From the NCBI GenBank assembly GCA_946478755.1, contig CAMLDJ010000002.1, positions 7,052-71,051 on the forward strand: a DNA stretch of 64,000 bases, read 5' to 3'. The notes under the pieces were generated by a model, which was given only the letters and a program-made list of their open reading frames with translations, was not told the DNA's origin and ran no database searches. Within the stretch, counting starts at the first letter, position 1. Each line of letters opens with the position of its first letter. Below are positions 6,784 to 26,572 of the stretch, piece by piece. Origin of the DNA: an uncultured Pedobacter sp. Lineage in GTDB: Bacteria; Bacteroidota; Bacteroidia; Sphingobacteriales; Sphingobacteriaceae. The position numbers and the translations under genes are program-made.

Positions 6784-6985
6784 AAGTTAAATGCGATTAT
6801 TATATTATTTCAGTTTGTATTTAATGCGATAAACTCCTTTCTATTGACCTAAAAACAAGAAGCAGTTTCTTTTGCTATGCTATATTTTTGCTCAGAAAAA
6901 AAATATGAAGGCCAAGATTTAAATATTTCGTAACTAGTGAATATTATCCGCAGCCTATACTCCTCAGTCACCAAGTTAGTGTTGA

Positions 6986-7017
6986 TAAAAAACCGGTGCC
7001 ATCCAGCTAACCGGTTT
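6986..7017 (-). terminator. Terminator between metallopeptidase and GH89 genes
   Basis: The arms AAACCGGT (6990-6997) and ACCGGTTT (7010-7017) are perfectly paired and flanked on the left by A6, which is a U-tract on the minus-strand RNA. It sits about 125 bp past the metallopeptidase stop. The rest of the 6784-7142 gap shows no gene and must hold any separate GH89 promoter. Confidence 0.7.
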
Positions 7018-7142
7018 CTCAAACTAACTAATCTTAACCAAGATTGCTAATTTTACACAGAACGTTGAGTTCAATAAGCAATCGTGGATATAATGAGGTT
7101 TACAAATCAATTCTCAATTTTTTATTTGCTCAAATAGTGCTA

Positions 7143-8780: not shown

Positions 8781-8817
8781 ATTAAATATTTTTAAAATGA
8801 ATTATTCTGTTTGGTTA

Positions 8818-8841
8818 AGAGTGGGGAATTATCCCCACTCT
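8818..8841 (-). other. Perfect intercistronic hairpin after susD
   Basis: AGAGTGGGGA, loop ATTA, TCCCCACTCT forms a perfect 10-bp stem with a tetraloop in the 85-bp gap between susD and the metallopeptidase gene. No U-tract follows on the minus strand. It therefore looks more like an mRNA 3'-end protector or partial attenuator that keeps susCD message high relative to the downstream enzymes. Confidence 0.6.
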
Positions 8842-8865
8842 AATTGGTCTAGAGCGAATATCTTT

Positions 8866-10509: not shown

Positions 10510-10532
10510 TATATTAAAAATTTAAGTCTGTT

Positions 10533-13500
10533 TTAAAAATTCATAGATACACCAACATTATATATTTTCATGGTTGGATAAAGTGCCGTTCCATTAGCCG
10601 TTTGCTCCGGATCATAATCCTTGTAGGGAAGCTTATCCCATGTAGCGAGATTCAGGCCATTTGCAAATATCCGCAGCGAACTTATCTTTACTTTAGCCAA
10701 TGTATGGACAGGAAAAGTATAACCTAACTCAAGATTTTTGATTTTGATATAATCCGAACTGTAAATAAAGAAAGTGCTCAACTGAGCGTTGTTCTGCCCC
10801 CCTGAAGAGCTGTAATGCACACTTGGATAGCTTGCCGTACTTGCTGTAGCAGGTGTCCAAACATCCTGCAGCCTGTCTGGCCCAAGATAAGGCACATTCG
10901 TTTTACCACTCAATGCGCCCTGTACCAACACACTCAGGTCAATTCCCTTCCAAGATGCTCCAAAAGAAGCTCCAAAAGTATTGTTGGGAAAGTTACTTAC
11001 TTGTATGGCTACCCTATCGTTCTCATTGATGATATGGTCTCCATTCATATCGCGGTAACGGATATCACCGGGAATTACTCTTCCGGCAAAACTTTGCTTA
11101 GGGGACGCATCAATTTCTGTCTGGTCTTTAAACAACCCTTCTGCAATATAGCCCAATTGATAACCAACCGGTAACCCTGTTAAGGCCTGATAAGGATAAG
11201 CCAGATTCGGTTCATCACGGGCAATTATCTTATTTTTATTGTATGTCCAATTGATGTAACCAAAAAGATTAACTTTGTTAACATGGGTATTAAAATTTAA
11301 GGATGTTTCGAACCCCTGGTTCAATACCTTACCCACATTGATCGCTGCCAAACCTGCAATACCAAGATAGGTAGGAATAGTCTGCGGTGTGGTAAGAATG
11401 TTAGTCCTGTTTTCTCTAAAAACGTCGACATCTAATTTGATCGCATTGTTGAAAAATCCGGTTTCTATACCAATGTTGGATTTTTGAGCTTTTTCCCAGG
11501 TGATGTTTGGATTACCGGTACGGTTTACATTATATCCCCCGGCTGTATTTGGACTTGGAGAGCCAAAATCAAAACCTCCACCCCTGCTGTAATCTGATAT
11601 AAATAACCATCTGGAACCACCAATATTATCGTTACCCACATAGCCGAATGATCCGCGGAGTTTTAAGTAATTCATAGCCTTACTGTTGTACCATGGTTCG
11701 CTTGAAATTACCCAGCCTGCAGATACTGCAGGAAAAAAGCCGTAGCGTTTACCTTTAGGGAAATTTTCCGACCCGTTATATCCCACATTGAAGTCTGCAA
11801 AATACCTGGAATCATAATTATAAGATACCCGTCCAACAAAACCTTCATAGGCCCTTGGCAGGTCACCGGTAACCGAGGTATAGTTCCTGTTAAACAGTGC
11901 CAGACCGGAAACAGTATGAGTACCGAAAGAACGATCATAATTTAACTGCATGTTATAAGAATAATAACGAGTTGCCGAAGTACTTGAAGTTTTTGCAAGT
12001 GAGGTCTCCGTAGAAAATGGTGTGTAGGTTTCTACACCGCTTACCGGATCTTTACGATAACGGAAGGCCGTAAATTGCTGATTTTGTCCATAGTTAATCG
12101 CACCAAAATTCTCGAAGGTATACAATCCCTTAATATTCAGTCCTTTGGTAATAAAATCCAGCTTATGATTTACCTCGATCGTTCCATTGGTACTGTTCCA
12201 AAAGTTATCATAATAACCACTTTGTAACAGGGCGCCCAAAGGATTTCTTACATCAGATGCATTTATACGCCCCGCCCCATAAGTACCATTGGGATTATAT
12301 ATCGGTGTAGTATAATTCTGCATCAGGGCAACGTTACTGAAAACAGAACTATAGCCAGGACCTGGCCCGGTCCTTTGCTCAATTCTCGATGCGAGGTCTA
12401 AACGGACAGTCATCATATCGGTTGCAACAATGTCAATATTTGATCTAAAATTATAGCGATCATATTTCTGCGAGATGCCATATTTATTGTCTTGTGCACC
12501 TTTAAACAGCGTTCCCTGATTGAGATATCCAAGCGAAACAAAATATTTCACACTACTATTCCCACCACTCATATTGGCATTATACTGTTGTTGTGGGGTG
12601 TTGCGTTCAAAAATCACATCGTACCAGTTCACATCGGGATAGGTATATGGATCGGCCTGGTTCCCAAACAATTCTACCTCCTTAGGGGTCCATATTGGGT
12701 TACTGCCATCATTAACTGAGCCCTGGTTGTCTAAGGTTGCTTTTTGAAAACTGCTGAAGCGTTCTGGGATACGCTGTGGTGTCTGGATACCATATTGGCC
12801 ATTAAACTGGATATTGGTCTTTCCAATCTTTCCACGTTTGGTGGTTACCAGAATTACTCCATTTGCCCCCTGTATGCCATACAATGACGTTGCAGCAGCA
12901 TCTTTTAATATGCTTATTGAGGCCACCTCATTTACATCGATATCTCCAAAGTTAGCATCCCCTCTGGTTAATCCATCAATAACGATCAACGGGCTCCTGC
13001 TGGCTCCATAGGTACCGATACCCCGGATATATACAGTTGAGGCATCTCCCCCCGGGATACCCGACGATTGAATTGTGGTCAGTCCTGGCAAACGGCCGGC
13101 GAGGGCGTTACTTAAGTTCGAAACAGGACTCTGTTTAAGCTCTTTTGTCTGAACGGTAGATATTGCAGCGGTTACACTCACCTTTTTCTGTGTCTGGCCA
13201 AAACCAGAAACCACTACTTCATTTAAGCTCCCGGCCTCTGCAATCAGCTGGATAAGCATTTCTGCTTTCAGGTTAGCCTTTACTTCCTGGGTTTGGTAGC
13301 TTACAAAGGATACCTGTAAAATAGCGCCATCCTGGACATTCTTAAGTAGAAAATCTCCGTTATCGCCACTCAATGTTACGGTTGTAGTCCCTTTTACCTT
13401 AATAGTTGCTCCCGGAAGCCCTGCTCCGGCCTCATCTACAACACGCCCCCGAATATCGGCAAACAAATGCTTAATGTTGTTGGGCTTGGCCTCATTGCGG

Positions 13501-13853
13501 TCTGTTATTACAATAGTAGAAGCCTCGATGCTGTAAGTTAAGGGCTGATTGGCAAAACATTTGTCCAAAACGATAGATAAGGGGGCATCTTTAACATTAA
13601 TGGTAATGTTGTTTATCTTTTTTATCCGGTTAGCATTATAAAAAATATCTAAACCGCTTTGTTGACTAATTTTATCCAATACCTGCTCTAAAGAGATATT
13701 CTTTTCTGAAAGGGTAATCTTATTCTGCGCAAAGCCGGTTGCACATACCTGAAAAGCCAGGGCAAAGAGTAGGAAAACTGTAAGTTTCATGGTTAGCAGG
13801 ACTTTATTTTTCGCACAGGGAATCCTGTACGATTTAAAATCATAAAATTTCAT
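10533..13853 (-). CDS. SusC/RagA family TonB-dependent transporter with STN signalling domain
   Basis: The protein has 1106 residues. After a signal sequence (the hydrophobic stretch LTVFLLFALAF follows a Pedobacter-like leader starting MKFYDFKSY), residues about 45-120 form an STN domain (ISLEQVLDKISQQSGLDIFY), the part that signals to FecR. Next come a carboxypeptidase-like domain (DIRGRVVDEAGAGLPGATIK), the linker NEVVVSGFGQTQKKVSVTAA, the plug with SISILKDAAATSLYGIQGA and a long beta-barrel ending in VGVSMNF. It imports the glycan bound by the adjacent SusD. The STN domain fits with the sigma and FecR genes directly upstream: ligand binding would release the sigma factor. A 154-bp leader before the gene probably holds its sigma-dependent promoter. 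Confidence 0.95.
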   Translation of the reverse strand: MKFYDFKSYRIPCAKNKVLLTMKLTVFLLFALAFQVCATGFAQNKITLSEKNISLEQVLDKISQQSGLDIFYNANRIKKINNITINVKDAPLSIVLDKCFANQPLTYSIEASTIVITDRNEAKPNNIKHLFADIRGRVVDEAGAGLPGATIKVKGTTTVTLSGDNGDFLLKNVQDGAILQVSFVSYQTQEVKANLKAEMLIQLIAEAGSLNEVVVSGFGQTQKKVSVTAAISTVQTKELKQSPVSNLSNALAGRLPGLTTIQSSGIPGGDASTVYIRGIGTYGASRSPLIVIDGLTRGDANFGDIDVNEVASISILKDAAATSLYGIQGANGVILVTTKRGKIGKTNIQFNGQYGIQTPQRIPERFSSFQKATLDNQGSVNDGSNPIWTPKEVELFGNQADPYTYPDVNWYDVIFERNTPQQQYNANMSGGNSSVKYFVSLGYLNQGTLFKGAQDNKYGISQKYDRYNFRSNIDIVATDMMTVRLDLASRIEQRTGPGPGYSSVFSNVALMQNYTTPIYNPNGTYGAGRINASDVRNPLGALLQSGYYDNFWNSTNGTIEVNHKLDFITKGLNIKGLYTFENFGAINYGQNQQFTAFRYRKDPVSGVETYTPFSTETSLAKTSSTSATRYYSYNMQLNYDRSFGTHTVSGLALFNRNYTSVTGDLPRAYEGFVGRVSYNYDSRYFADFNVGYNGSENFPKGKRYGFFPAVSAGWVISSEPWYNSKAMNYLKLRGSFGYVGNDNIGGSRWLFISDYSRGGGFDFGSPSPNTAGGYNVNRTGNPNITWEKAQKSNIGIETGFFNNAIKLDVDVFRENRTNILTTPQTIPTYLGIAGLAAINVGKVLNQGFETSLNFNTHVNKVNLFGYINWTYNKNKIIARDEPNLAYPYQALTGLPVGYQLGYIAEGLFKDQTEIDASPKQSFAGRVIPGDIRYRDMNGDHIINENDRVAIQVSNFPNNTFGASFGASWKGIDLSVLVQGALSGKTNVPYLGPDRLQDVWTPATASTASYPSVHYSSSGGQNNAQLSTFFIYSSDYIKIKNLELGYTFPVHTLAKVKISSLRIFANGLNLATWDKLPYKDYDPEQTANGTALYPTMKIYNVGVSMNF

Positions 13854-14007
13854 ACATTTGAATAGTTTAGGTTGTTGAAATGCTCCGCTGCCGGACCATT
13901 TTGTTTGGTTATATTACTTCTAAAAAATATTGTGGGGCAGACAAACTGAATTTTCCCCGGGAGTGTCTTCAGCACTTCCGGTTTTTTACAGCTTATCCCA
14001 ATTGAAA

Positions 14008-15183
14008 TTACGGCATAACTGTAATCCTCCTTTCTGTTACTTTAAAGGTTACATCATTGGTGCGTGTTAATATTCTTAAAACATCTTTTAGTGATTTTGA
14101 TCTGGAAATCTTGCCACTGAAGTTTAGATTTTCCATGGGTTTAACATAATCCACCTCAATATCATACCACCGGGCCAACTTGCGCATTACACTTTTTAAA
14201 TCTTCATCCTTAAAAATAAAACGCCCGTTTTTCCAATCTACCTGCGTGGCCGCATCTACCTCTTTTACCAACCAATCATTATCCGCTAACACAGACTGCT
14301 GTCCAGGTTTTAGGTATTTCTGCCCAGTTTGTTTTTTCCCCTGCCTGCTGATTACTTTTACGCTACCTTCTAGCAGAGTGGTTTTAATCTCATCTTCATC
14401 TGCGTATGCGTTAATATTAAAATGCGTTCCTAAAACCTGAACCTCCTGCCTGTTAGTTACCACGATAAATGGCTTAGCTGTATTATGTGCAACTTCAAAA
14501 TATCCTTCTCCCACCAGTTCAACCCTTCTCTCTTCACCAGTAAACTGCAATGGGTAACGTAAATAGGAGGCCGCATTAAGCCAAACTACAGTTCCATCAT
14601 TCAGCACAATCCTGTATTGGCCGCCTTTTGGGGTTTCAATAGTGTTAAATATGGTTGAATATTGGTTATCGGTAGCAGGAGCACTTAGCTGAACATATTC
14701 TATAAGCCCGTTTTCTTTCTTTTTGATCTTTATGCCATTTTGTTCTGCGATATCAGCGTTCGATTTACCGTCCAAAACAACCTTTGATCCATTACTTAAT
14801 GTTAATATTGCCTTATTTCCTCCCGGATGAATTAATTCTGCATAATCGACATGCTCCTTATTGGTGCTTTTTCCAGCCCTAAATAACAATATACCTACAC
14901 TGAAAAAGATGAGCAATATAGCAGCGGCACTTATCCACCATAAGTTAAGGTGCCTCTTAAGCTTCACTTTACCGATTTCTTCCTGTTCGGACTCCGCTCT
15001 TATCTGTGTTATAATCCGATTTAACAAAAGATCTTTAAAAAGCGCTTCATCTTGTGTCTCAATGCTTTCAATATCAGGTTTGCCTAATCTGGAATAATAC
15101 GCTTCGACCAAACGTCTTTCATTTTCACTTGCCTCGCCGTTTATATAAGTATCGATAAGAGATAAGAATTGTTTTTTTTCCAT
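14008..15183 (-). CDS. FecR-type anti-sigma factor
   Basis: The start is set at the ATG at 15183 (MEKKQFLSLIDTYING) rather than a TTG seven codons earlier, giving 391 residues. The N-terminal cytoplasmic segment binds the sigma factor. One membrane segment (WWISAAAILLIFFSVGILLF) follows. The periplasmic FecR domain includes GGQYRIVLNDGTVVWLNAAS, GEGYFEVAHN and VLGTHFNINAY. The DUF4974 tail (LKSVMRKLARWYDIEVDYV ...) resembles an STN fold and would contact the STN domain of SusC. It relays the transporter's ligand state to the sigma factor encoded 80-100 bp upstream on the same strand. Confidence 0.93.
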   Translation of the reverse strand: MEKKQFLSLIDTYINGEASENERRLVEAYYSRLGKPDIESIETQDEALFKDLLLNRIITQIRAESEQEEIGKVKLKRHLNLWWISAAAILLIFFSVGILLFRAGKSTNKEHVDYAELIHPGGNKAILTLSNGSKVVLDGKSNADIAEQNGIKIKKKENGLIEYVQLSAPATDNQYSTIFNTIETPKGGQYRIVLNDGTVVWLNAASYLRYPLQFTGEERRVELVGEGYFEVAHNTAKPFIVVTNRQEVQVLGTHFNINAYADEDEIKTTLLEGSVKVISRQGKKQTGQKYLKPGQQSVLADNDWLVKEVDAATQVDWKNGRFIFKDEDLKSVMRKLARWYDIEVDYVKPMENLNFSGKISRSKSLKDVLRILTRTNDVTFKVTERRITVMP

Positions 15184-15283
15184 GGTCTTGATATTATGTT
15201 CCAAAAAGAACCCACTACCCTACGGCAAAATATTTTTTTTCTTAAAAAAAATCGTAATATACTGACATTCAGCATTATAAAAT

Positions 15284-15862
15284 TTAAAGAAAAGTATAAG
15301 AAACGATTATGCAAACACACATTTCTATGCTTAAGCCTTCACGGATGAGCTTTAATGATTTCGACATTTTTTTTTCGACCGTTTTTACGGAAATCTCCAG
15401 TTTGCCAGCAATCTGCTTATAAGACATCTCTTCTTCCCTGCTCATCAGAAAAATCTGCCTGCAATCGGCGGGTAGGCTATTGATCAATCGCTGTAGCAAA
15501 TGCAGGTGGTCTTTAAAAATCGTTGGATCTTCTTCTATGATTTCTGTAGTAACTTGAGCCAAACGCTTATAAAAGCCACTATCAGTCTTTTGTGATCTAA
15601 TAGCCTTTAATACTGTTAGCCTAACTGACTGATGGAGATATGCTTTAAGGGAGACAATGTTCAATTCCTTTCTCCGCCGCCATAAATGCAGGAACATTTC
15701 CTGTAACGCATCGGAGGCTCCTTCTTCATCGCGCAGAATAGTAAAAGCTGTTCTGTAAAGCTGTTTCCAGTATAGATTGTAGATTTCACTAAATGCCTGC
15801 TCATCTCCATCCCTTAATCTGGAGATTAGCTCATCTTGACCCGATATTTGGTAAATCGACAT
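15284..15862 (-). CDS. ECF (FecI-like) RNA polymerase sigma factor
   Basis: This 192-residue protein has sigma region 2 (AFSEIYNLYWKQLYRTAFTI, EEGASDALQEMFLHLWRR) and region 4 (LPADCRQIFLMSREEEMSYKQ, then IAGKLEISVKTVEKKMSKSL), the latter a helix-turn-helix. Bacteroidota FecI-type sigmas with a downstream FecR and an STN-SusC control their own nutrient locus. This one should drive the SusC/SusD/peptidase/GH89 genes. The hydrophobic tail (MCVCIIVSYTFL) is slightly unusual for the family. Confidence 0.94.
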   Translation of the reverse strand: MSIYQISGQDELISRLRDGDEQAFSEIYNLYWKQLYRTAFTILRDEEGASDALQEMFLHLWRRRKELNIVSLKAYLHQSVRLTVLKAIRSQKTDSGFYKRLAQVTTEIIEEDPTIFKDHLHLLQRLINSLPADCRQIFLMSREEEMSYKQIAGKLEISVKTVEKKMSKSLKLIREGLSIEMCVCIIVSYTFL

Positions 15863-16089
15863 TTGTATTGAAAAACGAAACTAACATTTTTTTTACAGTT
15901 ATTTTGTTGACATACCAATAAATCTACCCATTTGGACAAATTTTTAATCGCTTATTGCTTATAACCCAAATTTATCAGTTCTCAATTTTCTCGCATGTTG
16001 CTTATTGTTTTTATAAGGTGGACGATCTTCAAAACCCTTTCTTTCGGGGAAAATACCTCATTAGTTTATTGAGATATAAAATAATCTAT

Positions 16090-16659
16090 TTAAGCAAAGA
16101 AGCGCGCGAGTGTAGCGAACAATGAATTAGCCCGCGGGTCGATGGGTGGCGGCATTAAGCTGCTCAAAAATGCAGCGACACTTGACAACGTAGCGCCCGC
16201 TTTTTCGAGCTGTCGAAACGCAGCTTGCTCTGTTCTACCACTCAGGCCACCACAAACATCTGTTAGCAGATATACATCAAAGCCGTTCCGAAGTGCTCCA
16301 AGTGCTGCCTGCACTACAGCCAGCTCCGTTGCTACACCACCAAGAACAATCACTGGCTTTTTGTAACTAGCTATGGCTTTTAGGCTTGTGTCATCATCAA
16401 ATACCCCAGCTGTTGATCGAATCACAACCGGATACTCAATCAGTTCATCGATAGTCTTAAGGTCTTTATCTGGCTGCATTTTAACTCCCGAGATAAAAAC
16501 AGGGATATCGAGAATATTTGCGCCTTCAATAAATATTGAAACAGCCTGGAGGAGCGTTGCCTCAACTATTGTTTTATTAGCAACCTTAAGAATTTCAGGT
16601 TGTAAATCCACTAGTACGACAATGACCTCGCTGGCATTTAGTTTTTGTAAAGTATTCAT
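16090..16659 (-). CDS. Isochorismatase-fold (YcaC-like) protein lacking the catalytic cysteine
   Basis: The protein has 189 residues and the isochorismatase-like alpha/beta fold: VVLVDLQPEI (Asp18, first triad residue), IVLGGVATELAVVQAALGAL and DVYLLTDVCGG. In cysteine hydrolases of this fold the motif after the cis-peptide reads T-x-x-C-V; here it is TELAV, so the nucleophile is Ala114. The triad Lys is also not evident (VVIRSTAG). It is therefore either a non-thiol vinyl-ether hydrolase like true isochorismatase, or a non-catalytic member. It is divergent from an HxlR regulator 330 bp away, the usual layout for a regulator and its target. The substrate is unknown. Confidence 0.85.
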   Translation of the reverse strand: MNTLQKLNASEVIVVLVDLQPEILKVANKTIVEATLLQAVSIFIEGANILDIPVFISGVKMQPDKDLKTIDELIEYPVVIRSTAGVFDDDTSLKAIASYKKPVIVLGGVATELAVVQAALGALRNGFDVYLLTDVCGGLSGRTEQAAFRQLEKAGATLSSVAAFLSSLMPPPIDPRANSLFATLARFFA

Positions 16660-16867
16660 TTTGTAAAGATTTTAGTATAAAAATTAAGAAACACTTCCGG
16701 CCAAGAATAGCACAAAGTGCCGATGTTTATAGCACTTGTTCGAACCACAGAATCGGCATGCATTCTAGAGTTATAAATACTGTTAATACCAGCCACTGTG
16801 GAAAGCACTTATAGCAAGATTACATCCATTTAAAGACTTTGCTAATCATTTACCATATTTATGTTAT

Positions 16868-16949
16868 TTTTACTAACGTAAAACTACAGCCTTGTTCTTA
16901 TAAAGTCTATAACTGTTACCGAAGAGTAAGCGCTTACCATTTGGTAAGC
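16868..16949. promoter_or_regulatory. Two inverted repeats between divergent isochorismatase-like and HxlR genes, likely HxlR operators
   Basis: A perfect palindrome GCTTACCATTTGGTAAGC occupies 16932-16949, 40 bp before the HxlR start. A second inverted repeat TTTTACTAACGTAAAA occupies 16868-16883. Both contain TTAC and GTAA half-sites. HxlR-family dimers bind short inverted repeats next to their genes, so autoregulation and control of the divergent gene is a natural reading. A TAATTTTG box (16977-16984) lies only 5 bp before the HxlR ATG. The 16660-16989 gap shows no gene. Confidence 0.6.
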
Positions 16950-16989
16950 AGTTTCCATATCACTCATTAGTTTTTGTAATTTTGTCTTA

Positions 16990-17583: not shown

Positions 17584-18864
17584 CTACTGTTTCACCAGTC
17601 TGAACTTCTGTGAATTGTAGGTGTGCGCGCTGTAGATCTGGATGGGCGTATCATTGGCTGTACTTCCCCCGTTTACATCAAGATTTTTCCCTGGCGCACA
17701 GGCCGGTGTAAGGTTATAATATCCACTGCCTGCATAATTGATCTGCCAACGTTGCGCTGAGGTATTGGTAAAATTATAAACCTGTACTGCTGTGCTATTG
17801 GCTGATCCTCCTCCTAGGACATTAAGTGCTTTGGTCGTATCCGCAAGACTCTTCAAGGCATAATACCCTCCTCCTAAAGATCTTAGCTTAAAGACCTGGT
17901 TGTTTGATGTGGGGTAATTATTTGTCCAAAGTGATACATCAGAACCGTTTACAGGAGGTGAGTCATTTACATCCGCTACCTTACTGGGTTCATTGGCTAA
18001 AGCCGATACGAGCTTATAATTAGCACCGTTAATCAACGTAATCTGTTGTGGATAAAAAGCAATCAACAACACACTTAAATGACTGTACCCTGCTAACTTT
18101 GTAGTTAAGTCGGTTTCACCATAATACCTTGAGAGTGCCCATGCATACATTTTCACGGGTTGACCGGCTACAGTTTTGGATGAAAAATAATTCTTCATCG
18201 GATCGTCTGCTGCCGCATCGTAGCTGATGCCATCTATACCGTAGGTAGTTAATTGATTATACATTGCGGCCATGGCGGTCTGCTGCTGGGCCGCAGGTTT
18301 CCCATATACATCTTCCCAATTGCAATAGTAGCTCACTTTCCAACCATCCTGCTTCAGGTTAACAAGGTAAGAAATGTAACGGCTTTCAACCAGAACCCGG
18401 TTTTTGATTCCATAAAGATTGTCTAACTGCTCAAGCGTAGTTCTAAAAAGCTGCTCATTAGCAGCGCTATTCAAGTCCTTACAGTCTAACCACAAGAATT
18501 CAAAACCGCTCATCTTCTGATTAAGATTAGCAAAGTATTCAAGCAAGGTCTGACCAGTAGCTGTCGCAGCTTCATGTCCGATCAAACAGGTAGGTTGACC
18601 GTTTTTGGTACCGACAAAAATGTCAACTTCCAGACTGTTGATTCCAGCATTTTTGATCTCGTCAACTTTGATCAGATCGTTTACACGATGGGCACTTACA
18701 ATTGCCGGGCCTCCACTCAATGTCTGAGAGGTCTGCTTGGCCAAAAGTTTCCCGGACCCTGTTAGCCCGTTTTCGCTTTCCGATGCACTCTTTTTACACG
18801 CTGTAAAAGAAATTGCCAGTGCAAAAACAGCACTGTAGATTTTAAATAGATTTTTGTTTAACAT
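17584..18864 (-). CDS. Sphingomyelinase D/GDPD-like phosphodiesterase lipoprotein with ricin-type lectin domain
   Basis: The protein has 426 residues and a lipobox ISFTAC (Cys23). Residues 53-280 resemble the GDPD-like TIM-barrel phospholipases: AHRVNDLIKVDEIKNAG, NSLEVDIFVG, IGHEAA and FLWLDCKDL. Recalled against spider and corynebacterial sphingomyelinase D, the two catalytic His (59, 97) and the Mg ligands (Glu79, Asp81, Asp127), plus Lys129, are all present, and the His59-Glu79-Asp81 spacing (20 and 22) is identical. Such enzymes cleave choline- or ethanolamine-phosphodiesters, often giving cyclic phosphates. Residues about 300-426 are a ricin-like beta-trefoil. It is the last gene of a SusCD operon, 6 bp after a metallophosphoesterase. 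A plain GDPD or FAM151/menorin-like enzyme is the main alternative. Confidence 0.72.
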   Translation of the reverse strand: MLNKNLFKIYSAVFALAISFTACKKSASESENGLTGSGKLLAKQTSQTLSGGPAIVSAHRVNDLIKVDEIKNAGINSLEVDIFVGTKNGQPTCLIGHEAATATGQTLLEYFANLNQKMSGFEFLWLDCKDLNSAANEQLFRTTLEQLDNLYGIKNRVLVESRYISYLVNLKQDGWKVSYYCNWEDVYGKPAAQQQTAMAAMYNQLTTYGIDGISYDAAADDPMKNYFSSKTVAGQPVKMYAWALSRYYGETDLTTKLAGYSHLSVLLIAFYPQQITLINGANYKLVSALANEPSKVADVNDSPPVNGSDVSLWTNNYPTSNNQVFKLRSLGGGYYALKSLADTTKALNVLGGGSANSTAVQVYNFTNTSAQRWQINYAGSGYYNLTPACAPGKNLDVNGGSTANDTPIQIYSAHTYNSQKFRLVKQ

Positions 18865-18870
18865 TGGTTT

Positions 18871-19815
18871 TTATTTTTTAAAGTAAATAGTTCTCGAAGT
18901 CATCCTGCCTTTTCCCTTTATCAATATCCTGTCTTTGTATAGTTCAACCTCCCCCCATGAATTGTCATACTCGGTTTCTACCATTCCCTCAATAATAACT
19001 GAAGGGATACCTGATTCCTCGCAGTAACCGCCGGTGTGGTGGTGGCCGGCAATAAGTGCTTTTACACAAGGGAACCTGGAAACTAGCCCAATTACCTCTT
19101 TACCGTTGAGTGATTCTAAACCATCGGCACAGCTAAAGGGGTGGTGCGAAAAAATTATCACTTTTTCATTTCTTGATGTTGCCTGCTTTAAATTCCTTTC
19201 CAGCCAGTCCATTTGCCTACTACTTAAACCTCCATTGTAGGGCTCGGCATTTTTACTGTTTGTTTTCTTAATTCTTGTAGAAAGCGAATCGAACTCCACT
19301 TCTTTCCATGTTCCCTTTACATTCGCGTAAGACGAAAGTTCGTTCGTATTTAACATCAGCAAACGCCATCCAGATTTTTTAATAACATAATATTCGCTGG
19401 GCATGCCCAATGCGCTATATAGTTTATCGTTATCCGCTATTCCACCGTAATCATGATTTCCGGCTATATTATATACGTTGTTACCGAATTTATCCAGCTC
19501 ATTCAATACTGGTTTAAGATCTTCAGGATTTCGGTCGGTAACATCACCCAAATTGATCAAAAATGCAAGGTTCTGCTTTTTAAGTTCAACCACAGCTGTG
19601 GCAAGTTTTTGTAAAGAATTTTTATAAAAACGTGTTCCACGCGTAGGTGCACTTGCATATTGAATGTCGGCAATAAGCCCAAAGCACAAATCTGGCCTTT
19701 CGGCTTGGGCATCAGCCCGGAAAACAAACAAACCAATACACCATAGGATCAGTAATAAGGTTTTTAAAGTAAAACGTTGTCTATATTTTATTTGTCTTTT
19801 CATAGTTATTACCAT
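18871..19815 (-). CDS. Secreted metallophosphoesterase, ADP-ribose/CDP-alcohol diphosphatase (ADPRibase-Mn)-like
   Basis: This 314-residue protein has a signal peptide (LLLILWCIGLFVFRADA). The calcineurin-type metal motifs are in order: GLIADIQYA (Asp50, Gln52; the D-x-Q form is typical of ADPRibase-Mn rather than D-x-H), NLGDVTD (Asp91), AGNHD (Asn120, His121), FSHHPF and AGHHH. RFYKNSLQKL after the first motif also fits that family. Members hydrolyse ADP-ribose, CDP-choline and related phosphoanhydrides or phosphodiesters. The first ATG overlaps the susD stop; the ATG at 19803 (MKRQIK) is an equally good start. In this operon it would act on phosphorylated products in the periplasm, which is inference. 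Confidence 0.82.
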   Translation of the reverse strand: MVITMKRQIKYRQRFTLKTLLLILWCIGLFVFRADAQAERPDLCFGLIADIQYASAPTRGTRFYKNSLQKLATAVVELKKQNLAFLINLGDVTDRNPEDLKPVLNELDKFGNNVYNIAGNHDYGGIADNDKLYSALGMPSEYYVIKKSGWRLLMLNTNELSSYANVKGTWKEVEFDSLSTRIKKTNSKNAEPYNGGLSSRQMDWLERNLKQATSRNEKVIIFSHHPFSCADGLESLNGKEVIGLVSRFPCVKALIAGHHHTGGYCEESGIPSVIIEGMVETEYDNSWGEVELYKDRILIKGKGRMTSRTIYFKK

Positions 19816-21569
19816 CCAGGATTTTGGTAAAGTTTGGGATTTAATGTAATTTCATTTAGCGGAATACATTCCAGATAATCTCTTAATGGATTGAAACCAT
19901 AGCCACCAGAAATCTGTGCAGAGAAGGGATCCAAAAAGCCATCGGCATCGGTTTTATAACTGATGTTTTTTCCTGTCCACTCACTGGCAAGGTATGGGTA
20001 GCCTTTAGGACGCTTACCCTTTAGCAGGTTATGGGCTGCCCACCGTCTGATATCGTCAAAACGAAAACCTTCAGCACCAAGTTCTACGGTACGCTCTCTG
20101 CGTATTTCCTGAAGCTCATCTGTTATGCTATATCCATAATCGGCATAACGTGACCTATTGGGGTCAGACTGTACCTTAAAATCAGGCATGCCAGCCCTTG
20201 ATCTCAGTAGGTTTATTGATTTTGCATAATCTACAGCCTCTCCAAGTTCAGCTTTTGCTTCTGCATAATTTAACAATGCTTCAGCATAACGGAAAACAAT
20301 TGCCCCCGTCTCACAGCTGGTGTTCCAGGAAACGCCGCTGCCTGCCTGTGGGTCTTTGGGATCGTTTCCTTTTCTAACCTGGAAGCCTGTATTGTTGAGC
20401 GTTTCACCCGATTTGTCCAAAAACGGCTTACTGAAGGTTCCTTTGCCGAAGCTATTGTCCCACATGGTTTGTCCTGGAACCCAAATGGTCTGCTTCAACC
20501 TTGGATCGCATTCATTCCCGATTTTGGTTAAAAAATTACTTCCCTTTACGCTTTTACCAATACTGAGATAATCATAGGCATTTCCATTTTTATCAAGGTA
20601 GTTGAATACCTGTTGCAGCGTTATACTGATCCCTGCCGTCCGATCTGATACGTAAATCTGAAAGGAATGTGATGCCTGAAGATTTACAGAATAGGCTTTC
20701 CATAAAATAACCTCTTTGTTATTCGACTGGTTAATTAGGGAAAATAGTTTGCAATAATCGTTATCGGGATCATTGTTGGAATAAAGCATTCTACCGTATT
20801 TGGTAGTCATCAATTCCTCTGCAGCATTAACTGAAGCGCGCAAATATTTATTCGCATCTGCATTTGCTGTACCAAAAGCAGTGCCTTTATGGTATTTTTG
20901 CCAAGTACCCTCGTATAATCCCACACGTGACTTGAAAAGCAAAGCGGCTTCTTTTGAAAGTCTGTTGTTTCCACCATCTGCCTGGGCAATGGGTTTCAGG
21001 TATGCAATAGCTTTATCCAGGTTCAGTAAAATCGAATCAACAACCACTGTTCTTAGGTCCCTTGCTTTGTACAAACCTTCAGCATCCATTTCAAGCGCAT
21101 CGGTAAACCAGGGAACGTCTCCATATTGGCGCACCTTTTCAAAATAAAACCAAGCTTTAAAAAAATGTGCCTCACCCACAAAATGCCTGATCTTGTCGAA
21201 AGGATCTGTTACGCGGCCATAGTTTTTAAAAAAAACATTTACACTTCTGACGTTCTCCCAGTTCCAATTTCCGGTAGCAGTTACGGGCTGATTGGTTCCA
21301 TTCCAAAGTGTGCTCGGTGATGCCGAAATCTGGGTATCCGAACCTCTCGTGCCATCCCAGCCAATAAAGCCCATATAACTCCCTATCGTTCCATATCCCG
21401 GAAAGCTATTGTAAAACTGTAGCGTGTATTTTTCCAGGTCGCTTGCGGTTTTCCAATAAGCCCCATTTTCTATTTGGGTTAGTGGGGGCCTGTCTAAATA
21501 ATCTTTTTTGCATGATAACGCAAAAAGAAGAATACCTACATTGAATATGATTAAAAATTTACTTTTCAT
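19809..21569 (-). CDS. SusD/RagB family nutrient-binding lipoprotein
   Basis: A 586-residue lipoprotein (LFALSC, Cys20, then KKDYLDRPPLTQI). Typical SusD features are HFVGEAHFFKAWFYFEKVRQYG, FRYAEALLNYAEAKAELGEA, IRRERTVELGAEGFRFDDIRRW, CIPLNEITLNP and a terminal NPGW. It forms the lid of the SusC encoded 48 bp upstream. The two downstream enzymes are phosphoesterases rather than glycosidases, so its ligand may be a phosphodiester-containing molecule. Confidence 0.95.
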   Translation of the reverse strand: MKSKFLIIFNVGILLFALSCKKDYLDRPPLTQIENGAYWKTASDLEKYTLQFYNSFPGYGTIGSYMGFIGWDGTRGSDTQISASPSTLWNGTNQPVTATGNWNWENVRSVNVFFKNYGRVTDPFDKIRHFVGEAHFFKAWFYFEKVRQYGDVPWFTDALEMDAEGLYKARDLRTVVVDSILLNLDKAIAYLKPIAQADGGNNRLSKEAALLFKSRVGLYEGTWQKYHKGTAFGTANADANKYLRASVNAAEELMTTKYGRMLYSNNDPDNDYCKLFSLINQSNNKEVILWKAYSVNLQASHSFQIYVSDRTAGISITLQQVFNYLDKNGNAYDYLSIGKSVKGSNFLTKIGNECDPRLKQTIWVPGQTMWDNSFGKGTFSKPFLDKSGETLNNTGFQVRKGNDPKDPQAGSGVSWNTSCETGAIVFRYAEALLNYAEAKAELGEAVDYAKSINLLRSRAGMPDFKVQSDPNRSRYADYGYSITDELQEIRRERTVELGAEGFRFDDIRRWAAHNLLKGKRPKGYPYLASEWTGKNISYKTDADGFLDPFSAQISGGYGFNPLRDYLECIPLNEITLNPKLYQNPGW

Positions 21570-21617
21570 CGTTTAATAAATAATTGTTTACCTATTTGTT
21601 TTATGCTGATACGGAAT

Positions 21618-24600
21618 CTAAAATGAAAGGTTGAGCCCAAAAGCCCAGATTGCCTGAGAAAACATACTCTTTCCATTACCAAGCTCGCCTAAAGCTGCCG
21701 TCTCTGGATCAAAACCTGTTGGCAGCTTAGAAAAAGTGTAAATATTTTCACCAGAGAAGTACATCCGGGCCCGTTTCAGTTTGGCCCAGTTCAGCAGCGC
21801 TTGTGGCATGGTATACCCCAGTTGCACATTTTTTAAGCGTACATAAGCACCATTTTGAAGATAACGGGTCTGAACCTGCTGGTTTTTTGCGTATTGGGTA
21901 GCGTTACTGTAAGGACGTGGAAAATAGGCTTCGGTGTTTATACCCAGTCCGGAATACTTACCAGCTTCTGCATCGCGGTAATAGTCCAAATGATTTGGGA
22001 ACAGTGATGATTGGTTCCACTGGTTGAATCCCCAGAATATATTACCACTTAACCATAAGTCTCTTTTGGCCACACCCTGAACGAAAATCCCTAGATCAAA
22101 GTTTTTGTAACTTGCCGAAAAATTCAGCCCAAACTGATACCTGGCCGTATTGTTACCGATTACTTTGAGGTCTCCGTGATCACCGATAGTGTTCTTTCCG
22201 TTATTGATGATACCATCGCCATTTAAATCCCTGTACTCTACATCCCCGGTTCTCCAAAGCTGGCCGTTGATAAAATTCTGAGATTTGCTGGTATTGATCC
22301 TATTGGCAAGCTCTTGGCTCTGAATTAAGCCAACTGTTTCATATCCCCATATTTCTCCTACTCTTTTCCCACTATAATCAGTAGTTAAAATACCTGTAGG
22401 ATTCGGATATTTGGTTACTGTATTGACATTATCGAAAATATTCGCGGTAATTGAATAGTTGAAATCATTACCAACCTTGCTCTTCCAGGTAAGGCTCAGG
22501 TCCCAACCCCTGGTCTGTAATTCTGAGTTATTTTCGCGGGGAACCGCTGCACCCAATACTGCCGGTAATGCTTTGGCCGGGCCTAAACGGTCGAGTGTTA
22601 AACGCCTGTAGTAATCAAATTCGATTTTTAACCTATTTTTGAAAAGGCCAAACTCAATTCCTATATCCGTTGTTCTGGATGATTCCCATGTCAGATCCCG
22701 GTTGATCAGGTTTGGCGCGACAGTATAGGCTGATCTTTTGCCGTTCAGAATCCAATCCAAATTAGTCCTAACCCCTAATAATGCCAGATCCTGGTATGAA
22801 GCTACATTCTGATTTCCCAGCATCCCCCAAGACCCCCTTATTTTAAAGTATTGAATATTATCGCTGATTGCCGACCAGAACTTTTCATTGGATATTACCC
22901 AACCGCCGGATAAAGAAGGGAAAAAGCCCCATCTTTTGCCATCAGCGAACTTCGAGGTACCATCATATCTTAGGTTTGATTCCAGTAAATATTTGTCATC
23001 GAAATTATAGTTTAACCTACCAAAAAAACCTTGGGTAGCCCAATGCGACATCGCATCAGAAACCTGCATCTCACCTGTAGCAGTAGTTATAGATATGACT
23101 TCCTGTGTAATCAGCTCTCTTTTCAAACCGCTTAGATAGTCATATCTGTTAGATTCCTGTTGATACCCACCCATGAGCTCAAACCGGCTCTTTGTGCCAA
23201 GGTTAAATTTGTAAGACGAGAAGATGTTCAGCGCCTTATAAGTGGTATTTGCCTTGTCTTTTGAAATAGAGGAAGGCACAGTGAGTGAAATGGGCAACAA
23301 AGTGCCATCTACCTGATCTTCGTAAGCGGTCAGATTAGCCCCTTCATAATTATTGATACTATAGTTCATGGAATAATCTGCATTTATCAACCAATTTTTC
23401 AGCGGTTTTATTTCAGTAGCCAGCCGCTGCATCAATTCATTGTCAGTAAACCTCTCATATCCCGCCTGCATCTGGGGAACGCGGGACAACTGTGAATAAT
23501 AACCATTAGGTGATTTGAGGAAAACCTCGGGATGTGTACGGAATATCTGATGGATAATCATACCATAGCCTCCTTCTCCATTGTAAATAGGTCTGTCACG
23601 GTTTTCATTTGTAAGCCGGGTATTAGAACTGATCTTCCACCAGGGCGTGATGTTGATGTCAAGTTTTGCGGTTAGATTATAGCGATTATATTTATCCTCC
23701 ACCATCTTTAATGGCCCCTTTTCACTGGCATGGCCTCCAGACAGATAGTACGCCATGTTTTTAGAACCACCACTAACCGAGAGGTTTTCCTGTGTCCTAT
23801 AACCAGAACCAAAATGGATGTCTATCCAGTCGTTATTGGCATTTGACAGTTGATAAGTTGACCATTTGGTAGGATTGGAGGCATCAGGAACTGTTTCAGG
23901 TAGTGTAGGGTCATTAATGTAAGCTATAATCCTATCGATTGTAGACTCTGCAAACAACCTGGCGACACCCTGATTATCGTGCATCTCATTGATAGCTCTG
24001 GTGAAAGTATAAGAATCTACCATTCTGGGCTTGTTAATAATGGTTGTAGGACCACCATTAACGGAGAAATCAATTTGCGGGACCTGATTGGCTTTTCCCG
24101 ATTTTGTGGTAATCAACAATACCCCATATGGTGCCCTTGCGCCGTATATTGCTGATGCCGCCGCATCCTTTAAAACCGAGATACTTTCAACGGTATTTGG
24201 ATCTAATGTATTGATATCACCAACAGTGCCATCAATGAGTACATAAGGTGATCCTTGTCCCCTTATCTGAACCGATGGACCAGCTCCAGGTTCAAAACCA
24301 TTATTGCCATAGCCTATTGTGAGTCCGGGCGTATTTCCATAAAGTGCCTGACTAACATTATTTACAGGTCTGTTCTGTAAAGCCTTTCCATCAACCACAC
24401 TTACCGCACCCGTTAAGTTTACCTTTTTCTGTGTTCCGTAACCAACGACAACAACATCGTTTAGGCTGTTGTTTTGAGCGGTTTCCAACCGCACTACGAT
24501 CGAACTGTTTCCTTCTTCTGATACCTGTACGTTTTTTAAATACTGTGTTTCAAATCCAACACTGGAAAAAGTTAAAGAATACCTCGCATTGGGTTGTAGC

Positions 24601-24827
24601 TTCGGAAAGAGAAAAACCCCATTTGAGTCTGTCAAAACCTTTGACTGCTGAGCGGTATCGGTATCTTTAACGATTTTGACGGTAACAGATGGTACCGGAA
24701 GTGATTTATCATCAAGTACCTTACCTGTAATTTTTGGATTTTTCTGTGCATAAATGCACAAATGGCACAACATCAGCAATAGCAGACAACTTATCTGCTT
24801 CCACCGCATTTTTTTTCGGTTCTTCAT
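21618..24827 (-). CDS. SusC/RagA family TonB-linked outer membrane transporter without STN domain
   Basis: A 1069-residue protein. After a signal peptide (CLLLLMLCHLCIYAQ) it goes directly into the carboxypeptidase-like domain (ITGKVLDDKSLPVPSVTVKI), the linker LNDVVVVGYGTQKKVNLTGA, the plug (PYVLIDGTVGD, ESISVLKDAAASAIYGARAP) and a barrel ending FGLNLSF. It pairs with the adjacent SusD. It has no STN domain although sigma and FecR genes lie directly upstream, which leaves the usual transporter-to-FecR contact unexplained. Confidence 0.95.
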   Translation of the reverse strand: MKNRKKMRWKQISCLLLLMLCHLCIYAQKNPKITGKVLDDKSLPVPSVTVKIVKDTDTAQQSKVLTDSNGVFLFPKLQPNARYSLTFSSVGFETQYLKNVQVSEEGNSSIVVRLETAQNNSLNDVVVVGYGTQKKVNLTGAVSVVDGKALQNRPVNNVSQALYGNTPGLTIGYGNNGFEPGAGPSVQIRGQGSPYVLIDGTVGDINTLDPNTVESISVLKDAAASAIYGARAPYGVLLITTKSGKANQVPQIDFSVNGGPTTIINKPRMVDSYTFTRAINEMHDNQGVARLFAESTIDRIIAYINDPTLPETVPDASNPTKWSTYQLSNANNDWIDIHFGSGYRTQENLSVSGGSKNMAYYLSGGHASEKGPLKMVEDKYNRYNLTAKLDINITPWWKISSNTRLTNENRDRPIYNGEGGYGMIIHQIFRTHPEVFLKSPNGYYSQLSRVPQMQAGYERFTDNELMQRLATEIKPLKNWLINADYSMNYSINNYEGANLTAYEDQVDGTLLPISLTVPSSISKDKANTTYKALNIFSSYKFNLGTKSRFELMGGYQQESNRYDYLSGLKRELITQEVISITTATGEMQVSDAMSHWATQGFFGRLNYNFDDKYLLESNLRYDGTSKFADGKRWGFFPSLSGGWVISNEKFWSAISDNIQYFKIRGSWGMLGNQNVASYQDLALLGVRTNLDWILNGKRSAYTVAPNLINRDLTWESSRTTDIGIEFGLFKNRLKIEFDYYRRLTLDRLGPAKALPAVLGAAVPRENNSELQTRGWDLSLTWKSKVGNDFNYSITANIFDNVNTVTKYPNPTGILTTDYSGKRVGEIWGYETVGLIQSQELANRINTSKSQNFINGQLWRTGDVEYRDLNGDGIINNGKNTIGDHGDLKVIGNNTARYQFGLNFSASYKNFDLGIFVQGVAKRDLWLSGNIFWGFNQWNQSSLFPNHLDYYRDAEAGKYSGLGINTEAYFPRPYSNATQYAKNQQVQTRYLQNGAYVRLKNVQLGYTMPQALLNWAKLKRARMYFSGENIYTFSKLPTGFDPETAALGELGNGKSMFSQAIWAFGLNLSF

Positions 24828-24905
24828 TAGTTTTATTTATAGTTTTTTGGTTTCGGGATGGTGGCTAACATCAAAACGTGTTGCCTGTTAAAAAGCGGTT
24901 TCCGA

Positions 24906-25958
24906 TCAATCGGTATTTGCTTTTTGGCTGTGGATCAGGTAGTCTGTGCCTTTCTTTTGGACAGTAATATCATTAATGGAGGTTATGACCCTCAAAATAT
25001 CCAAAGGCGTCTCTTTGCCGCCAAAACTTCCTGTGAAATATTTCTTGTCAACGTCTGCTTGCTGGAAGATTATTCTAATCTGATAAACAAGTTCCAACTG
25101 TTTGAACACATCATTTAACGGCGTATTTACCATGGTCATACCCTGCCTGATAGCGTCGGGTGTTAAGTTGCTCATCACCCCTAAACTAGTATCGATAGTG
25201 CTATTGAAATTTCCGTTAAAAGTTGACAATTTTGGAATATTCGTATCTAAACTGACGCTGTACTGCTCACCTGGCTTCAAAAAGTTAGCGCGTTTTTTTC
25301 TGGATTTCTCAAAAACATCTACTACAACCCTCCCCTCATACAGCTTCACATCGACCCCCTTTCCTAAATCAGCAACCGTAAATTTTGTACCCAGAGCTGT
25401 AGTGGCGATACCACGCGCCCACACCGTAAACGGATGATCTTTATCCTTTGCAACCTCAAATGCTGCCTTTCCGGTTTTTAAGAATATTTTTCTGTTGGTA
25501 TTAAAGTTAACGGGATATGAAATTGCCGCTCCAGGGTATAAGGTAATCAGGGTGCCATCAGATAGGCTAAACTTCAAGTAGCCCCCAGTTCTGTTGATTG
25601 CTGTTTTAAACTTTATATCAGCATAGGGATTGGGAGTACTCTCCTTGACTGCCTCAACAAAATGGAGGCGGAAGTAAAGCAATCCAAAAACCAGTATCAA
25701 GCTTGCCGCAATCGTTAACGGTTTCCATAACTGAAATATTTTTTTCCGGGGACGTAGTGCAGTACTGATACCTGCCCATATTTCTTCCCTAAGACGATCG
25801 TCTCCTTCAGGAAGAGGTCCCGGTCTATTCCATTCCTCCTCAGTTAATAATTCTTCAAGCAGATCGGGATATTGTTTGAGGGTGCCATCAATAAGCGCCT
25901 CCTCCTCTTTACTGCATTCATTTCTTAAAAATTTTTTGATCAGCTCAATTCTACCCAT
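24906..25958 (-). CDS. FecR-type anti-sigma factor
   Basis: The ATG at 25958 (MGRIELIKKFLRNECSKEEE) is preferred over a TTG two codons earlier, giving 350 residues. It has a short cytoplasmic sigma-binding part, a membrane segment (LTIAASLILVFGLLYFRL), a FecR domain (GGYLKFSLSDGTLITLYPGA, KAAFEVAKDKDHPFTVWARG, ALGTKFTVADL) and a DUF4974 C-terminus (VNTPLNDVFKQLELVYQIRI). It lies 59 bp after the sigma gene and 78 bp before susC on the same strand. The DUF4974 part normally meets an STN domain, which the neighbouring SusC lacks. Confidence 0.92.
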   Translation of the reverse strand: MGRIELIKKFLRNECSKEEEALIDGTLKQYPDLLEELLTEEEWNRPGPLPEGDDRLREEIWAGISTALRPRKKIFQLWKPLTIAASLILVFGLLYFRLHFVEAVKESTPNPYADIKFKTAINRTGGYLKFSLSDGTLITLYPGAAISYPVNFNTNRKIFLKTGKAAFEVAKDKDHPFTVWARGIATTALGTKFTVADLGKGVDVKLYEGRVVVDVFEKSRKKRANFLKPGEQYSVSLDTNIPKLSTFNGNFNSTIDTSLGVMSNLTPDAIRQGMTMVNTPLNDVFKQLELVYQIRIIFQQADVDKKYFTGSFGGKETPLDILRVITSINDITVQKKGTDYLIHSQKANTD

Positions 25959-26017
25959 GTTCAACTTTTTATATACAGGTACGTTGAACTTATAAGATCT
26001 CCCTATCGGGTTAAAAA

Positions 26018-26572
26018 TTAATTTAAAAAATCAGCGCCAGTGATGACAGCCCATATAGACAACTGTAAAATCTTCCGGAGTTGGTTATTGGCCTTAACCA
26101 GCTGACTATCTATTGTTTTTGTTGAAACCCCAAGCTTTTCTGCTATTTCTTTATACGAATACCCATGTATATGCCTAAGTTCAAATATTTCTTTTCTTTT
26201 GGGCGGTAGTTTATCTATTGCCCAATAAACATGATCTGCAACATCAATCTGATGGTTAATCTGATCCCAACCGGCATCGACACATTTTATACAATTGGCT
26301 TCAAGATATTCCCGCTTACGCATTTCCTGGCGTAACCAATCAATAAATACCTGTTTTGTTTTCCGGAATATCTGTATGTCTAACGGAAGTTCATCAGATA
26401 GGCTGTGCTTATACCGCCATAACTTGATAAAAACCAGTTGAGTTAAATCCTTTGCCTGTTCTATATTTTGGGTCTTGTTCCATAAGTAACGGTATACCTT
26501 ATCCCATGAGGATTCAAACACCGCTTTGAAAGCAGCATCAGATCCAGTTTTTAAGGCATTGATTTTTTCCAT
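26018..26572 (-). CDS. ECF (FecI-like) RNA polymerase sigma factor
   Basis: A 184-residue protein with region 2 (AFKAVFESSWDKVYRYLWNK, EQAKDLTQLVFIKLWRYK) and region 4 (LPPKRKEIFELRHIHGYSYK, then EIAEKLGVSTKTIDSQL). It heads the SusCD-phosphoesterase operon and presumably drives it under FecR control. Confidence 0.94.
   Translation of the reverse strand: MEKINALKTGSDAAFKAVFESSWDKVYRYLWNKTQNIEQAKDLTQLVFIKLWRYKHSLSDELPLDIQIFRKTKQVFIDWLRQEMRKREYLEANCIKCVDAGWDQINHQIDVADHVYWAIDKLPPKRKEIFELRHIHGYSYKEIAEKLGVSTKTIDSQLVKANNQLRKILQLSIWAVITGADFLN

Follow-up and report, generated by a model that had tools for sequence, protein, structure and literature searches.

SusCD loci, built around a SusC-like transporter and a SusD-like lipoprotein, are usually read as glycan loci. 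Exceptions are the phosphate utilisation systems (PUS) of Flavobacterium, whose SusCD-like pairs are induced by phosphate depletion and co-localise with phosphomonoesterases and phosphodiesterases instead of CAZy enzymes (carbohydrate-active enzymes; Lidbury et al. 2020, PMC8115612). PUSI of Flavobacterium johnsoniae comprises PusCD1 (Fjoh_4168/9), an extracytoplasmic function (ECF) sigma factor (Fjoh_4171, listed at 8.88, from its context a log2 fold change, in the table's first expression column) and two phosphodiesterases, Fjoh_4172 (PI-PLC) and Fjoh_4173 (CpdA), between which pf00149 and pf16670 are shared out; the two Pfam numbers look swapped in the table. In the accessible text of that paper PUSI is proposed to be a phosphodiester scavenger and appears without CAZy enzymes, lipid head groups and nucleic acids are the proposed PUS sources, and PusD forms are polyphyletic (PMC8115612). 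Here we compare these systems with a SusCD locus in a 64,000-nucleotide stretch of DNA from an uncultured Pedobacter sp. (assembly GCA_946478755.1, contig CAMLDJ010000002.1, positions 7,052 to 71,051; hereafter the window), in which two phosphoesterase-type genes follow SusD.

The locus is a run of six minus-strand genes read from 26572 to 17584 (Table 1), the last two encoding a metallophosphoesterase (MPE) and a lipoprotein whose catalytic part resembles glycerophosphodiester phosphodiesterases (GDPDs) and sphingomyelinases D (SMaseDs), hereafter the barrel protein. The sigma-FecR-SusC-SusD order and the coordinates given in an earlier sequence-only reading of this DNA correspond exactly to the open reading frames (ORFs), all on the minus strand. 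Intergenic gaps along the run are 53, 78, 48, -7 and 6 bp, reproducing the -7 and 6 bp spacing reported there for the enzymes. A SusC-like TonB transporter adjoins a SusD-like lipoprotein, as in polysaccharide utilisation loci (PULs). No glycosidase family of Pfam or NCBIfam matched any of the six proteins, the lectin domains being the only carbohydrate-related matches, so the locus is without the carbohydrate-active enzymes of a PUL and the two enzymes named in that reading are indeed its only ones.

Table 1. Genes of the six-gene run, in the order of transcription (window coordinates).
Feature	Coordinates	Strand	Remarks
ECF sigma factor	26018..26572	-	opens the run; PF08281 3.5e-16; TIGR02985 104 bits, under the 126-bit cut-off
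FecR-type anti-sigma factor with FecR_C domain	24906..25964	-	PF04773 1.6e-15, PF16344 1.5e-12
SusC/RagA TonB-dependent outer-membrane transporter	21618..24827	-	TIGR04056 2.7e-231, 771 bits
SusD/RagB surface lipoprotein	19809..21569	-	PF07980 2.2e-42 (SusD_RagB)
ADPRibase-Mn-like metallophosphoesterase (MPE)	18871..19815	-	PF00149 2.6e-14; profile match to 2nxf, E 1.1e-43
Lipoprotein: GDPD/SMaseD-type TIM barrel (~50-273) and C-terminal ricin-B lectin (~290-424)	17584..18864	-	

By the families of its proteins, as distinct from their activity, the locus is PUS-like: a SusCD-like pair is co-localised with phosphoesterases. As far as PUSI is described in the accessible text, both loci combine an ECF sigma factor, SusC/SusD and two phosphodiesterase-type enzymes without CAZy enzymes. 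The enzymes themselves differ. The barrel enzyme of PUSI is a PI-PLC-C1 (PF16670), whereas that of the window is GDPD/SMaseD-like and carries a lectin, and the MPE of a PUSI-type locus is long (~650 aa) and of another subfamily than the window MPE. PUSII of F. johnsoniae (PusCD2 and PhoA1), compared by its description in the same text, likewise has a phosphatase in place of CAZy enzymes; unlike the window locus, it has a single alkaline phosphatase with an extra domain.

We extended 14 of 16 PI-PLC-C1 places found, the other two both lying in genome G124. Relatives of PusC and PusD were nearby in 12 of these regions and a long MPE in 8, and five (L088-L091 and L095) held the full set of sigma, FecR, PusC, PusD, PI-PLC and MPE. 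One of the five, L089, which matches PUSI by content and not by name, served as its stand-in for sequence comparison. The window SusD had no significant similarity to that of L089 (E 0.07), the SusCs shared 24% identity, and the best blastp match between MPEs had an E of 0.018. Moreover, the enzymes of L089 do not stand in one run after SusD, unlike those of the window. Judged against the L089 proteins, the window locus has no orthologues of PusC1/PusD1, PI-PLC-C1 or the long MPE and is not PUSI itself.

Given the lack of significant SusD similarity to a PUSI-type locus and the different enzyme subfamilies, the most fitting reading of the window locus is a variant of the phosphate utilisation system that was assembled independently and is seen in Pedobacter, Sphingobacterium, Chitinophaga and Niabella. 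Such a conserved set, with an ADPRibase-Mn-like phosphoesterase as its only constant enzyme, suggests repeated origins of phosphorus-type SusCD systems beyond Flavobacterium. The sequence-only reading had proposed a new kind of nutrient locus. That proposal does not stand, because PUSI as described, which phosphate depletion induces, shares its content and logic with the window locus (PMC8115612): the kind of locus is already known, and what appears new is the variant. We found no published description of the variant in the open-licence PubMed Central (PMC) literature; a paper there on iron limitation, in its accessible part, did not tie metallophosphoesterases to a SusD operon. We favour, with moderate confidence, a PUS-like SusCD system that scavenges organic phosphodiesters. 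The comparison with PUSI argues for phosphorus as the nutrient sought.

The broader claim that a SusCD system goes with phosphoesterases was borne out across genomes, where the MPE and barrel genes are conservatively linked to SusCD. A scan for the barrel family, with one genome per species, returned 12 loci, in Niabella, Chitinophaga, Pedobacter, Sphingobacterium and one Bacteroidia bin. SusC (56-75% identity), SusD (62-76%) and MPE (43-60%) adjoined the barrel gene in every one. The order SusC-SusD-MPE-barrel recurred in 11 of the 12; in L012, from the Bacteroidia bin, the barrel gene precedes the MPE gene and has LamG stretches. Ratios of nonsynonymous to synonymous divergence (dN/dS) between the window and its near-twin L062 were 0.037 for the barrel protein, 0.060 for SusD, 0.054 for SusC, 0.151 for MPE, 0.185 for FecR and 0.080 for sigma. 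Against L063 they were 0.017-0.080 over four genes, rough values given a dS of 1.6-2.3. All ten gene pairs (0.017-0.185) indicate purifying selection on the locus. The presence of SusC, SusD and MPE at all 12 barrel loci, together with these ratios, places the linkage beyond chance.

The reverse search used SusD (E 1e-140) in four genus groups, chosen because each holds a barrel locus, a choice that favours barrel-bearing loci. Matches were obtained in 8 of 79 genomes of the Chitinophaga group, 1 of 17 of Niabella, 6 of 119 of Pedobacter and 7 of 93 of Sphingobacterium. This gives 22 genomes with SusD identities of 64-96%, or 23 with L012, and all 22 SusD places were matched at 100% identity to longer, inspected loci. 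The MPE adjoined SusD in all 23 genomes (in fragments in G739), and the barrel protein in 16 (15 of the 22 without L012). In the seven others (G685, G715, G747, G689, G713, G739 and G869) the barrel protein was absent genome-wide at E 0.001, while three other genomes searched alongside were positive. An obligate pairing of the two enzymes is not supported: as the MPE adjoins SusD in all 23 genomes but the barrel protein does so in just 16, SusCD plus MPE is the core of the locus and the barrel lipoprotein is accessory. The gene after the MPE in G869 encodes a purple acid phosphatase in place of the barrel protein. Phosphatases are added to the locus in two cases: L012 has a purple acid phosphatase, and so has L064, which lacks the barrel protein. 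In L048 (G739, Chitinophaga group), SusC, SusD and MPE are in several pieces, reflecting either a decaying locus or assembly errors.

An IQ-TREE phylogeny of SusD (31 rows, 28 different sequences) grouped the 25 rows with an MPE in one clade with 100/100 support, apart from 6 outgroup rows without it. L044 and L046 stand outside this tree, their SusD ORF having been lost to an overlap filter; in L037 and L039, SusD and MPE are present for both. Left out were also 8 of the 23 matches from A1, P0001 (1 of 23) from A3 and L008 from A2. The label for barrel presence needs four changes on the tree, from which it follows that the barrel gene was gained or lost repeatedly. Across Pedobacter, Sphingobacterium, Chitinophaga, Niabella and the Bacteroidia bin, the sole constant enzyme of the set is an ADPRibase-Mn-like phosphoesterase. 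The locus provides a functional context both for the uncharacterised barrel family and for a bacterial branch of the ADPRibase-Mn-like family.

A profile built from the window MPE together with 19 relatives matched zebrafish ADPRibase-Mn-like 2nxf over its full length with the E given in Table 1, the runner-up being at 1e-7. The dimetal signature (D50-x-Q52, D91, D94, GNH 119-121, H224, H225 and HHH 258-260), D-x-Q included as in 2nxf, was kept in all 20 aligned rows; by full-length similarity and metal ligands the MPE is a member of the ADPRibase-Mn-like family. It differs from 2nxf in its SusCD setting and in its probable export: the N-terminus resembles a signal peptide, so the enzyme is presumably periplasmic. 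Zebrafish ADPRibase-Mn hydrolyses 2',3'-cAMP mainly to 3'-AMP and also acts on phosphoanhydrides (PMC3407115). The constant MPE might serve nucleotide scavenging, with ADP-ribose, CDP-alcohols or 2',3'-cyclic nucleotides from RNA as substrates and the barrel protein acting on a different substrate. We regard this as improbable; the characterised ADPRibase-Mn members, in the accessible parts of the papers describing them, are vertebrate enzymes (PMC3407115, PMC4334965). One further observation concerns the history of this gene. The window MPE (18871-19815) shares 82% identity with that of L062 (8755-9699), while SusC, SusD and the barrel protein share 96%, and its dS of 0.67 is above the 0.30-0.52 of the other genes, hinting at recombination or replacement of the MPE.

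The barrel lipoprotein has a lipobox-like FTAC read from the sequence. Ricin-B lectin was the only Pfam family above cut-off, and the catalytic part had no Pfam match. In searches with a structural model of this part, GDPDs ranked first, followed by SMaseDs and phospholipases D (PLDs); the top rows also included a single beta-glucanase entry. The modelled TIM barrel, matching both GDPDs and SMaseDs, places the protein in the GDPD/SMaseD superfamily by fold. With GDPD and GDPD-like SMaseD/PLD proteins (2o55, 9yd8, SicTox) it has the TIM barrel in common; it differs in being a lectin-bearing lipoprotein in a nutrient locus and in lacking a Pfam GDPD match, and its sequence link to SMaseDs is marginal. 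PF03009, which we take to be the GDPD family, was not among the Pfam matches of 12 barrel rows at E up to 10 (HMMER filters on). Identity with PI-PLC-C1 was rejected: PF16670 matched just 2 of the 12 rows, with a best E of 0.22, and blastp against the PI-PLC-C1 of L089 gave E 0.005 over 106 residues, which may reflect distant kinship. Menorin (PF10223) matched 3 of the 12 rows, with a best E of 0.016.

Sequence comparison with the PDB gave one match under 0.1 for the catalytic part, 9yd8, the PLD of Arcanobacterium haemolyticum (E 7.3e-4 as a single sequence, 0.038 as a profile). H59, E79, D81, D127 and K129 aligned with it, that is the first histidine, E-x-D and D-x-K, while H97 was off by 2-3 residues. 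The two histidines, E-x-D and D-x-K were all retained in 24 of 25 rows of the barrel family. The retained H-R-x-N, E-x-D, D-x-K pattern is one that we take, partly from general knowledge of these motifs, to be of phosphodiesterase type. That the barrel is instead a glycosidase, a TIM barrel like the beta-1,3(4)-glucanase 7wwc/7ww4, with the MPE an incidental member of a small PUL for glycans, is highly improbable. Besides the retained pattern, 9yd8 is the sole PDB sequence match below 0.1, no glycosidase family was among the Pfam matches of the 12 rows at E up to 10, and the constant partner is an MPE. The match and alignment with 9yd8 would fit a true sphingomyelinase-D/lysophospholipase-D system, in which the surface enzyme would convert sphingo- or lysophospholipids to cyclic phosphates, the head group set free being imported. 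We consider such a system improbable. The accessible part of PMC6299612 provided no usable SMaseD/PLD motif list.

For the favoured reading, the scavenging of organic phosphodiesters, we propose the following sequence of events. The surface lipoprotein would hold its substrate by the lectin while the barrel, to judge by its fold and residues, would cut a phosphodiester within the larger molecule. The TonB-driven SusCD pair would then import the phosphorus-containing fragment, as expected of its family. In the periplasm the MPE would hydrolyse this fragment to a monoester, possibly by opening a cyclic phosphate formed in the first step, and general phosphatases would finish the process; ECF sigma and FecR would turn the genes on. 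Since the MPE is constant and the barrel protein is not, the imported molecule is most simply the MPE substrate, with the surface barrel enzyme widening the supply by releasing that substrate from a larger molecule.

A hand-over of cyclic phosphates between the two enzymes would be chemically reasonable, because ADPRibase-Mn acts on 2',3'-cAMP and GDPD-like SMaseD/PLDs end at cyclic phosphates, where GDPDs proceed to hydrolysis (PMC13079978). A more elaborate version is a relay. It would start from a phosphodiester that bears a glycan, such as a GPI-like anchor or a glycosyl inositol phosphoceramide of plants; an SMaseD-like surface enzyme would convert this to a cyclic phosphate fragment, which SusCD would import and the ADPRibase-Mn-like enzyme would open. 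We know of no SusCD system for glycan-bearing phosphodiesters of this type. The relay is unlikely; if true, it would provide a SusCD system for a new class of molecules and a nutritional role for an SMaseD-like enzyme.

The relatives outside the MPE clade bear on the origin of the system. Five of the six outgroup loci were extended (L032 was not), with one further relative, and the longer flanks contained no MPE or barrel match. Their SusCDs (SusD 42-48%) adjoin genes for GH3, GH115, GH88, WbsX, sulfatase, ceramidase-domain and esterase proteins. We infer that a glycan-type SusCD may have been converted to phosphoester use, with the MPE as the constant enzyme. Wider searches scored the top candidates per genome (3 to 79), so that their counts are lower bounds and close SusDs may be missed. 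For SusD they gave at least G001 and three at 50-51% (48% by blastp) among 294 family genomes, at least G001 and three places in one genome among 345 phylum genomes, and at least L012 itself and one at 48%, with a stop, among 247 genomes of its order. The barrel search across 395 genomes of the phylum (E 0.001) gave at least five matches, strong in G001 (that of L001) alone; the other four (best 4.9e-17) had no SusCD within the short loci returned.

In one genome (L107, L108 and L109 of G167), a protein with a neutral/alkaline ceramidase domain (PF04734) comes after each of three related SusCD pairs, and beyond it lie GH115 and GH88 genes in L107 and esterase-type genes in L108 and L109. A sphingolipid link by way of PF04734 was considered and rejected, as the three clear cases come from a single genome, a fourth case, L110, is under the cut-off, and the neighbours include glycan enzymes and esterases.

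A glycan-linked outgroup also speaks for a different explanation, in which the locus is a carbon-directed PUL and its target a glycoconjugate that carries phosphate (GPI-type glycan, glycosyl inositol phosphoceramide, phosphomannan or teichoic acid). Here the barrel protein and the MPE would only remove or split the phosphate, making the sugar or polyol moiety available for import and consumption. ECF/FecR control, usual for glycan PULs, fits this explanation too, as do the ricin-B lectin on the barrel enzyme, the LamG stretches of the L012 barrel protein and a GH5 gene with a ricin domain in L062 (11430-13169), which lies on the opposite strand ~440 bp beyond the barrel gene. PUSI, however, likewise has an ECF sigma factor and yet is phosphate-regulated, as described (PMC8115612). 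Nor is the lectin decisive. It is dispensable, being absent from barrel proteins P0016-P0019 and those of L010, L011 and L047 (some of which are the same proteins), and a GH5 protein of the window (2617-4314, plus strand) has the same ricin-B type; for both reasons it is weak evidence on the substrate. No glycosidase was found among the six window proteins or the Pfam-scanned same-strand followers of L001, L009, L012 and L064, most other neighbours being unscanned. Taken together, a carbon-directed PUL is possible but unlikely.

Some neighbours do argue, with the lectin, for a glycoconjugate as the substrate. Next in the locus of L012 (9929-18127) are genes for the purple acid phosphatase, for a BACON-F5/8C protein and for a peptidase of the M60 (enhancin-like) type, a set that suggests a substrate linked to glycoprotein; this peptidase and its accompanying F5/8C and BACON domains also count for the carbon-directed PUL. 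In L001 (11287-12621) and L009 (11222-12598) a DUF5077-DUF3472 lipoprotein follows the barrel gene, and L001 has a near-copy of it on the other strand at 15633-16955. The open-licence PMC papers retrieved for DUF3472 dealt with venom and viruses.

The SusC of the locus had no detectable STN signalling domain (PF07660) at E 0.1, nor was one detected in the SusC of L001 (3936-7157), though an ECF sigma/FecR pair precedes SusC in both. Longer SusCs of the same clade showed a weak STN match (L009, 3733-7197; L012, 4667-8149) or a weak FecR_C-type match alone (L010, 3774-7223), so a switch of signalling mode may have occurred within the clade. Elsewhere in the window, a second, ordinary-looking PUL on the minus strand (4624-15862) contains sigma and FecR-like ORFs, a SusC with STN, SusD, an F5/8C protein and an alpha-N-acetylglucosaminidase (NAGLU), and a GH115 gene lies at 51017-53869 on the plus strand.

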